Notes under the pieces: generated by a model
The model's database searches: none
Told to the model about the DNA's origin: nothing
What the model saw: the letters and a program-made list of their open reading frames with translations, nothing else
Made by a program: the position numbers and the translations under genes
Shown here: piece after piece, positions 15,440 to 30,332 of the stretch
Layout: every line of letters begins with the position of its first letter
Numbering within the stretch: position 1 is the first letter of the stretch
From: Jiangella gansuensis DSM 44835
GTDB lineage: Bacteria; Actinomycetota; Actinomycetes; Jiangellales; Jiangellaceae
Length of the DNA: 64,000 nucleotides
Assembly (NCBI RefSeq): GCF_000515395.1
Contig: NZ_KI911782.1
Span: forward strand, 2,047,927 to 2,111,926
Direction: 5' to 3'

Positions 15440-15600
15440 CACACGACCAACCCGATCAGGGTGGCCGGCTTGGACGCAGCAAGGCCGGTCCTCGGTTGTG
15501 GCTCTCGGTCCCACGGCGGGTCGCCGCCGGCAGGGTCCGCGGGCTTCCATCGAAGACCGGTGCGTACGTGAACTCATTCGAGCGGGCCTCCCGTGATTCC
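15440..15600 (+). ncRNA. Structured pnp leader, candidate Actino-pnp RNA motif
   Basis: The 5' leader of pnp contains GC-rich complementary segments (GGCCGGCTT near 15462 with AAGGCCGG near 15481, one bulge, and CGGCGGGTCGCCGCCGG near 15520). A conserved structured RNA called Actino-pnp has been described upstream of pnp in actinobacteria, so position and structure agree. The exact motif boundaries could not be verified by eye. Confidence 0.4.
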
Positions 15601-28979: not shown

Positions 28980-29037
28980 CCGCTGATTCGGCGCAACCGT
29001 GTGGCGTCGCGCACTGATCTTTGTGACAATGGAGACC

Positions 29038-29153
29038 TGAGGGGAGTACTTGTCGACCTCACCCGGTCATCCCGGACCGTCCGAGCGGTCCTCGGGTAGG
29101 CCGCCCGCCTCGCCGCGGGCGTAGGAGACCTCGAACGTGATGGTTCGAGGAGG
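29038..29153 (+). promoter_or_regulatory. yybP-ykoY (manganese) riboswitch with SD-masking hairpin
   Basis: The conserved 5' element GGGGAGTA (29041-29048) and 3' element GGAGACC (29124-29130) bracket two helices: GGACCG/CGGTCC (29074-29091) and CGCCCGC/GCGGGCG (29103-29121). The P1 helix is TGAGG (29038-29042) with CCTCG (29129-29133). The same CCTCG begins a perfect 8-bp hairpin CCTCGAAC/GTTCGAGG (29129-29136 / 29143-29150) that covers half of the Shine-Dalgarno GAGGAGG (29147-29153). Ligand-stabilised P1 would therefore free the ribosome site of terC. The family is known to sense Mn2+ and to precede TerC genes. Confidence 0.72.
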
Positions 29154-29157
29154 CTCC

Positions 29158-30180
29158 ATGCCCGTACTGGCTGCCGATACCGCGTCGAGCGGGAGTTCGA
29201 TCGCGTCGCCGGGTCTGTGGGCGGTCAGCATCGCCGTCCTGCTGGCCCTGCTTGTGGTCGACTTCGTGGTGACCCGCAAGCCGCACGAGGTCTCGATGCG
29301 TGAAGCGGTGGGTTGGTCGGTCTTCTACCTGGCGCTGCCATTCGTCTTCGCCGGGTACATCTGGGCGGAGTACGGCGGCCCGCAGGGCCTGGAGTTCGTC
29401 ACCGGCTTCGTCGTCGAGAAGTCGCTGTCGGTGGACAACCTGTTCGTGTTCATGCTGATCCTGTCGGCCTTCGCGGTGCCTGCGGAGCTGCAGCAACGGG
29501 TGCTGCTCTACGGCATCGTCGGCGCGCTCGTGCTGCGGGCGATCTTCATCGCCGCCGGCGCCGCGATGCTCCAGGCGGGCACGTGGGCGTTCCTTGTGTT
29601 CGGTGCGGTGCTGTTCATCACCGCGGTCCGGGTGTTCCGGGACGCCGTGCGCCACCAGGAACCGATCGGCGACGTGTCGGAGATGAGGGTGGTGCGGGCC
29701 CTGCGGCGATGGATGCCGGTGACGGACTCGTACCGCGGCGCGAAGCTCACGGTCCGCGACGGTGGCCGCCGCGCCTTGACCCCGCTGGCGGTCGTGGTGG
29801 TGGCGGTGTTCGCCACCGACGTCGTCTTCGCCGTGGATTCCGTGCCTGCGGTGTACGGCATCACCGAAGACCCGTACCTGGTGTTCACCACCAACGCCTT
29901 CGCTCTGCTGGGGCTGCGGGCCCTGTACTTCGTCCTTGCGGTGGCGCTGTCCAGGCTGACCTACCTCAACCACGGGCTCGCGGTCATCCTCGCGTTCATC
30001 AGCGTGAAACTGGTTCTGCACTGGGCCCACGGCGTCTGGCCGGCCGTCCCGGAGATCCCGACGACGGCCTCGCTGATCGTCATCGTCCTGGTCCTCGCCA
30101 CGGTGATCGTCGCCAGCCTGCGAAGGCGGGAGGACACCGCGGCGCTGGCCGCCCCGGCCGATCGAGGTGAATCACGATGA
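29158..30180 (+). CDS. TerC-family integral membrane protein (Mn2+ exporter type)
   Basis: A 340-residue membrane protein with about nine hydrophobic segments. The family signature EKSLSVDNLFVFMLI is near residue 85. A second conserved acidic segment, FATDVVFAVDSVPAVYGIT, is near residue 218; the Asp/Asn residues are thought to bind metal. TerC proteins, historically linked to tellurite resistance, act in Mn2+ efflux and metalation of exported enzymes in Bacillus and E. coli (Alx). ATG 29158 is positioned by GAGGAGG. The yybP-ykoY riboswitch upstream supports manganese control. Its stop overlaps the next small ORF (ATGA). Confidence 0.9.
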   Translation: MPVLAADTASSGSSIASPGLWAVSIAVLLALLVVDFVVTRKPHEVSMREAVGWSVFYLALPFVFAGYIWAEYGGPQGLEFVTGFVVEKSLSVDNLFVFMLILSAFAVPAELQQRVLLYGIVGALVLRAIFIAAGAAMLQAGTWAFLVFGAVLFITAVRVFRDAVRHQEPIGDVSEMRVVRALRRWMPVTDSYRGAKLTVRDGGRRALTPLAVVVVAVFATDVVFAVDSVPAVYGITEDPYLVFTTNAFALLGLRALYFVLAVALSRLTYLNHGLAVILAFISVKLVLHWAHGVWPAVPEIPTTASLIVIVLVLATVIVASLRRREDTAALAAPADRGESR

Positions 30181-30332
30181 GCTACGTCATCGACGTCCTG
30201 GCCGCCGTCCTGATCCTGGCCGCACTGGTCATCACCTGCGCGGCTCTGTCCACCGGCCCGCCGCGGGAGCACCGCCACCGAGGCCATGGACACGGCCATG
30301 GCCATGGCCATGGCCGGAACCGTCCGGCCTAG
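30177..30332 (+). CDS. His-rich membrane microprotein coupled to terC
   Basis: A 51-residue ORF whose ATG overlaps the terC stop (ATGA, 30177-30180). One transmembrane segment (about residues 4-24, VIDVLAAVLILAALVITCAA) is followed by a short cytosolic or external tail with alternating His-Gly (HRHRGHGHGHGHGHGR). The tail is a clear metal-binding candidate. It shares the transcript, and thus the Mn riboswitch, with terC. It could be a subunit or metal chaperone of the TerC exporter. No named family was recognised. The stop overlaps the 3' end of azlD on the other strand. Confidence 0.65.
   Translation: MSYVIDVLAAVLILAALVITCAALSTGPPREHRHRGHGHGHGHGHGRNRPA

Follow-up and report, generated by a model that had tools for sequence, protein, structure and literature searches.

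A single-helix microprotein family that accompanies terC in two gene orders under manganese-riboswitch-like leaders in actinobacteria

Directly behind terC in Jiangella gansuensis DSM 44835 lies a 51-codon gene (30177-30332, forward strand, of the 64,000-nucleotide stretch of DNA analysed here, hereafter the window) whose product, the TerC-companion microprotein, represents a family without a match in Pfam or NCBIfam. In many soil actinobacteria members of this family stay with terC, in two gene orders: in the downstream (D) order the microprotein gene shares the leader RNA of terC, and in the divergent upstream (U) order it often has a second copy of the switch to itself. The interpretation favoured here, to which we assign a probability of about 60%, is that the microprotein is a manganese-induced accessory subunit of one TerC subfamily; the linkage of the two genes is strong on sequence comparison, and the mechanism is what we infer.

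The microprotein ORF (translation MSYVIDVLAAVLILAALVITCAALSTGPPREHRHRGHGHGHGHGHGRNRPA) runs from an ATG at 30177 to a stop codon at 30330-30332; its start overlaps the terC stop (30178-30180) as ATGA, and a Shine-Dalgarno (SD)-like gaggtga (30164-30170, forward strand) lies ahead of it within the 3' end of terC. AlphaFold2 gives a single helix of residues 2-25 (a predicted transmembrane helix, 30180-30251, forward strand), which contains the acidic residue D6 (codon 30192-30194), followed by a low-confidence, unstructured tail. A GGCCAT hexamer array (30282-30315, forward strand; Tandem Repeats Finder, period 6, 5.7 copies), one unit of which is spelled as the synonymous variant GGACAC, encodes the Gly-His portion of the tail. 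The 51 codons, the ATGA overlap, the one (predicted) helix and the Gly-His tail described in an earlier sequence-only reading are thus confirmed from the sequence and AlphaFold2, except that the run, GHGHGHGHGHG, comprises five HG units and not six, with seven histidines in the protein as a whole. The neighbours are a gamma-glutamyltranspeptidase gene upstream and the convergent azlD and azlC genes downstream; because the ORF and the azlD frame overlap by no more than their last 4 nt, the tail does not overlie azlD.

The terC gene itself (29158-30180, forward strand) encodes a protein of the TerC/Alx family that exceeds the curated NCBIfam cut-off of TIGR03718 (358 versus 246.4 bits) and matches Pfam PF03741 at E 6e-46; no solved structure resembles it by sequence at E 0.01. 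Its start is likely the ATG at 29158, behind gaggagg at 29147-29153, because the longer ORF from GTG 29137 would start inside the leader hairpin.

The distribution of the microprotein was determined from terC loci of named genomes and of genomes of the window's genus, its family (f1) and families f17 and f46. Loci with terC running off the contig were dropped, and exact duplicates (the same sequence across the matched terC and a further 100 nt) were collapsed, leaving 263 loci, of which 239 hold terC orthologues of at least 58% identity; near-duplicates remain among the 239. Loci brought in through the microprotein itself (L001-L030 and L138-L167) are excluded from the 239-locus counts, the terC matches G890:C34 and G367:C1 are not in the locus set, and of a further group of terC matches outside f1, f17 and f46, five entered the set and most were left out. 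With a final model trained on both forms and a threshold of 15 bits, the microprotein is encoded directly downstream of terC in 96 of the 239 distinct loci, divergently upstream in 41 and in neither position in 102; nowhere else in these loci does a match reach 15 bits (best, 10.3). With a model trained on the D form only, the 15-bit threshold is reached by 95 D and 33 U loci; this model scores the U form at 18 bits or more in 28 of the 239 loci, and elsewhere in the 1,015,214 bases of loci it reaches at best 10.8 bits, with none at 15 or above. Weak single matches are no proof, because helices with shuffled cores reach 15.6 bits with this D-only model.

The two gene orders are distributed by family: 87 D and 31 without the microprotein in f46, 34 U and 36 without in f17, two D and one without in f1, one D, seven U and 24 without among named Micromonosporaceae, and six D and one without among named Pseudonocardiaceae; the remaining nine loci, outside these families, have none. 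The named loci of the U form are those of Actinoplanes and Catellatospora. The one named Nonomuraea locus examined, that of Nonomuraea gerenzanensis (L375, terC of 68% identity), has the leader motifs and no microprotein match above 5 bits, and so is no example of the U form. In Amycolatopsis decaplanina (L120), inspection by eye finds only the first microprotein codons after the terC stop, seemingly a decayed copy. Mapped on a TerC tree (FastTree, with long-branch warnings), presence and absence require 35 changes, compared with 77 for shuffled labels. Homologues lie next to terC in 137 of the 239 loci, other actinobacteria among them, and not in the other 102; because so many orthologues lack it, including 24 of the 32 named Micromonosporaceae, TerC can work without the microprotein. 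A scan of 35 members against Pfam and NCBIfam gave no match at the cut-offs (best E 0.017 and 0.029, respectively), and each family below threshold matched only one or two members.

Both forms evolve as coding DNA under purifying selection. In the true frame dN/dS is 0.49 for the D form (35 independent pairs) and 0.47 for the U form (14 pairs), versus 0.72-2.44 in the other five frames; a slightly different stretch gives 0.50 and 0.49, and an initial test with 25 D pairs had given 0.40. The final ratios and the tail counts exclude five U rows and one D row, which the script failed to align at the acidic position. Such values are moderate, as would be expected of a short helix with conservative exchanges. 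Since a homologue of the helix part occupies the same spot in 96 of the 239 loci and the true frame has the lowest dN/dS, the window ORF is a real protein-coding gene, beyond chance.

D-form ORFs start from 23 nt before to 49 nt after the terC stop, 17 of the 96 overlapping it and 71 starting within 10 nt after it. The start codon is ATG in 129 of 137 homologues, and at least four of six matches to AGGAGG precede 80 of 96 D and 40 of 41 U starts, the choice of start having favoured such sites. The D consensus opens with L-x-D/E, closes its helix with ITCA-x-L and continues into RPP and a short tail; the U consensus is MSxTxLLEILLGVLLxxSAIVTxAVLWPGPPR. Among distinct sequences with a residue at the column concerned, the helix start bears an acidic residue, D or E, in 88 of 90 of the D form and all 41 of the U form (129 of 131). 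Lysine and arginine are absent from the first eight residues in 126 of 137 homologues, and the tail is net positive in 72 of 95 D and all 36 registrable U sequences, so by the positive-inside rule, under which an N terminus without K/R and a positive tail give an N-out, C-in orientation, the microprotein would have its N terminus outside and its C terminus inside. The tails are short and rich in proline and arginine, with histidine at 6.6% of tail residues in D and U alike. It is the helix and the acidic residue at its start that are conserved, not histidine.

A manganese-riboswitch-like leader, with an aptamer and an anti-SD hairpin, precedes terC (29035-29155, forward strand); it scores 82 bits (E 6.8e-16) with the covariance model R1, which was built from terC leaders only and counts the window leader among its 63 rows. 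From 95 diverse leaders, alignment A2 holds 70 and A3 63, the others being left out for a misplaced second motif, odd length or set size. In the 63 aligned leaders 96.8% of cells are paired, compared with 45-55% when partners are slid, and 14 of 27 pairs show compensatory change. GGGGAGTA and G[GA]AGACC both occur upstream in 232 of the 239 terC loci. Columns G9-A16 and G33-A37 are invariant in the 70 leaders, which were picked by GGGGAGTA, so that only the second loop is independent. In the window that loop keeps the A of GTCA (29069) and, as GTCATCCCG, departs from the common GTCA..ACG a few bases past GTCA. Crystal structures of yybP-ykoY riboswitches are reported to have an invariant adenosine (xCA) of loop L3 in contact with Mn2+ (PMC6754395), which by our reading would be the GTCA adenosine that is invariant among the aligned leaders. 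RNAalifold predicts a three-helix junction. The anti-SD hairpin (CCTCGAAC/GTTCGAGG, 29129-29150, forward strand) is paired in 95% of cells, with three of eight pairs changed on both sides, a weak covariation; its 5' arm also forms P1 with 29039-29042, and the two pairings are mutually exclusive. The SD region is an alternative pairing partner of the P1 3' arm, so that P1, once ligand-bound, should release the SD; the leader would then be an ON switch on translation. A leader of this kind likewise precedes the second TerC paralogue of the window's genome (R1, E 3e-5).

The Rfam model of the yybP-ykoY riboswitch, RF00080, finds no match at gathering in the window or 20 terC loci, nor any in two leaders when the threshold is relaxed to E 5 and E 10. 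Searched against its own genome it gives nothing at the terC leader and four weak matches elsewhere; a weak place elsewhere in the genome (L368) was dropped because it had no Rfam match on retest. The sole Rfam gathering match in the window is an Actino-pnp RNA (RF01688, 58 bits) at 15484-15561. In control searches RF00080 has matches in nine of 14 known genomes, two of them above the cut-off, and in the leader of E. coli K-12 alx (L372, about 1679-1760), which carries ggggagtaacttc (ggggagta) and gtcattacg, it has none even at E 10. The alx leader is reported to sense manganese (PMC9603457). Because the model misses it, the RF00080 test lacks power, and for this reason, together with the missing match, the window leader is described as working like a manganese riboswitch and not as an RF00080 member. 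The manganese riboswitch that the sequence-only reading placed over the ORF agrees with both conserved loops and with the covariation, but has no RF00080 match: the leader is a conserved, covarying, manganese-riboswitch-like RNA that may bind Mn2+. Like the yybP-ykoY class it has the GGGGAGTA loop, a GTCA loop with an invariant adenosine and P1 as switching helix; unlike it, it has three predicted helices at the junction in place of the published four-way arrangement, and it also drives a microprotein. The Rfam manganese model seems to miss the TerC leaders examined, and counts based on it may miss real switches.

Many divergent loci have a second switch. A pattern antisense to terC (GG[AG]GAGTA, then 18-40 nt, then GTCA..ACG), written after 14 U loci had been viewed and counted on all 239, is present in 24 of the 41 U loci but in none of the 198 others, among them 36 f17 loci that lack the microprotein; after letter-shuffling of the sequences 0.2 matches per whole set are obtained. 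The window's own leader misses this pattern because of the departure of GTCATCCCG noted above. With R1 a second copy is detected (best E 4e-6) in 13 of the 41 U loci at a threshold of E 0.005, rising to 23 when E 0.1 is allowed. A second model, R2, built from 21 of the 24 second leaders (A4), directly precedes 32 of 37 microprotein genes of f17, 11 of them outside the model rows as compared by eye. Among 60 further R2 matches at E 1e-4, eight of the better ones were read, and all eight precede TerC paralogues (L420-L427, 44-49% identity to the window TerC), an indication that TerC switches are what R2 recognises, perhaps of a widespread actinobacterial leader class. By motif no second switch is found in 17 of the 41 U copies, including all seven of Micromonosporaceae, and by R2 none before five of the 37 f17 copies. 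In one f17 locus that lacks the microprotein (G545, L180/L419), R2 has a match upstream of terC and antisense to it (E 1.8e-7), followed by a 360-codon frame.

Searches that started from the protein also lead back to terC. A search with the entire 51-residue ORF was rejected as an approach: it matches 59 of 60 genomes at E of 1 or less, with most of the listed matches in long unrelated frames, and among the matches listed one copy beside terC was recognised (G009) other than the window's own. Across 393 genomes of the class there are eight microprotein matches at E of 1e-4 or less, all adjoining terC, of which those in the window genome (G000) and G009 are query rows, that in G367 has the sequence of another row, and five, in U-type genomes, are independent. 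Queried with the U alignment, 250 f17 genomes yield 37 strong matches (E 3e-13 or less) in 36 genomes, most of them rows of the query that were first found via terC; 35 adjoin terC (judged by eye, plus three loci read), in one case a terC cut by the contig end. Two genomes (G521 and G586; L416 and L417) have a switch-led microprotein but no terC within the 6 kb read, and these copies are either remnants or act in trans. Three weaker f17 matches (E 2e-4 to 8e-4) fall in frames of 146-655 codons.

The two genes move together between lineages. At E 1e-110, two of the 12 genus genomes (G000 and G009) have the window's type of TerC, both with a D-form microprotein; in the TerC tree G009 groups with f46 rows at 99% local support, and the window row, apart from it, has no supported place. 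Because so few genomes of the genus have this TerC and its closest relatives are in another family, horizontal gain in the genus is suggested. A block of 3-3.6 kb containing terC and the microprotein gene is 99.3-100% identical in seven f46 genomes (L344-L346 and L348-L351) with six genus codes, which indicates a recently mobile element and a recent joint transfer of the pair. Absence from close relatives, regarded in the earlier reading as evidence against the gene, is not found in general, yet 10 of the 12 genus genomes lack this TerC at E 1e-110.

The TerC paralogues of the window's genus (43-51% identity) have the microprotein in 0 of 24 cases. The last TerC helix (about 30064-30120 in the window) is the TerC helix that scores best with the D-only microprotein model (median 4.0 bits, versus 0.4 for shuffled cores), and a partial duplication of this helix is a possible origin of the microprotein, though not a significant one given how high shuffled helices can score. 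Four TerC proteins (L128, L129, L131 and L132, of two Nocardioides and two Actinotalea) themselves end in a C-terminal tail with histidines; these loci have neither the microprotein nor the leader motif.

If the microprotein is an accessory subunit of TerC, a rise in manganese would lead the switch to free the SD, so that TerC and the microprotein would be made together. The microprotein would insert with its N terminus out and its C-terminal tail in the cytoplasm, and its helix would pack beside TerC via a face of small residues. The near-invariant acidic residue, near the outer leaflet, might engage in a polar or metal contact and thereby stabilise or tune TerC in manganese export or in the metalation of secreted proteins. 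The His-Gly tail of the window copy would be a lineage-specific elaboration, which may bind metal, and not the core function. A bolder version, offered only tentatively, is that the microprotein is an exchangeable manganese-switched subunit whose acidic residue completes or gates the metal path, and which can be wired in two ways, by translational coupling behind terC or by a back-to-back riboswitch of its own.

The microprotein could act in the opposite sense, as an inhibitor of TerC that gives negative feedback or protects the manganese pool. The precedent would be MntS of E. coli, whose gene lies outside the operon of the manganese exporter MntP. MntS, a hydrophobic protein of 42 residues in manganese homeostasis, is proposed to act on MntP, and its overexpression is reported to mimic the loss of MntP (PMC4361602); the separate switch of the U loci would permit TerC and the microprotein to be dosed independently. 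MntS, however, is repressed by manganese (PMC4361602), whereas the microprotein is predicted to be induced together with TerC at high manganese; the two are compared by function only, and an inhibitory role seems rather unlikely.

A role as adaptor between TerC and either the Sec translocon or a protease, which would assist the manganese loading of secreted enzymes, is unlikely too. TerC proteins of Bacillus subtilis function in secretion and are reported to co-precipitate with SecDF, PrsA and FtsH (PMC10550928), and the short, basic, proline-rich tails of the microprotein would suit such a role; but the sequences hold no evidence of a Sec contact, and the accessible part of that paper names no such small protein.

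Quite improbable is the metal-binding accessory subunit of the sequence-only reading, taken here as one whose His-Gly tail gathers manganese for TerC. The window copy has its seven histidines, and a few other tails are rich in histidine (L119, with HHHHRH, L094, L188 and L336), but among tails cut at 40 residues at least three histidines are present in only four of 95 D tails, the window included, and eight of 36 U tails; a single further homologue was found in the genus (G009, L032), and it has none, and no Gly-His run comparable to that of the window was seen in the other homologues listed. The search of terC loci for downstream ORFs with His-rich tails thus finds the ORFs, in 96 of 239 loci, but seldom the tails, and a His-rich tail was rejected as a family trait on tail composition. 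Histidine, moreover, prefers softer metals than manganese, and the hexamer repeat could have arisen by slippage. Hardly credible is a chance ORF or selfish remnant without function, to which the patchy presence and the decayed-looking L120 copy might point, against the lowest dN/dS in the true frame, the two gene orders and the dedicated switch.

As an accessory subunit the microprotein would have counterparts in AcrZ, which accompanies AcrB, and KdpF, which accompanies KdpABC, one-helix transporter accessory proteins that are likewise tiny and hydrophobic, made together with a large transporter and thought to act on it (PMC7267776, PMC3618439). The microprotein differs from them in its partner, TerC, in its metal-switch-like leader and in the possibility of a divergent order with its own switch, and is likened to them by description only. 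MeeF and MeeY of B. subtilis and Alx of E. coli belong, like the window TerC, to the manganese-linked TerC family (for further background, see PMC12096827), and a companion microprotein goes unmentioned in the accessible parts of the papers concerned (PMC10550928, PMC12096827).

Small transporter accessory proteins and manganese switches on terC are already known. A search of the literature, mostly of papers outside subscription and including the text of the Pro-SMP paper, found no TerC-linked microprotein, and to our knowledge the pairing of the two and the divergent double switch are new. The TerC family of membrane proteins is widespread, little understood and linked to manganese, and a conserved partner without a family model offers a direct handle on it. 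That so tiny a gene is usually given a dedicated manganese-switch-like leader in f17 is hard to explain unless its protein matters for manganese. If the bolder version above is correct, a divergent pair of metal riboswitches would control one transporter-microprotein pair. The case also suggests that genes small enough to escape annotation can be reached through riboswitches.
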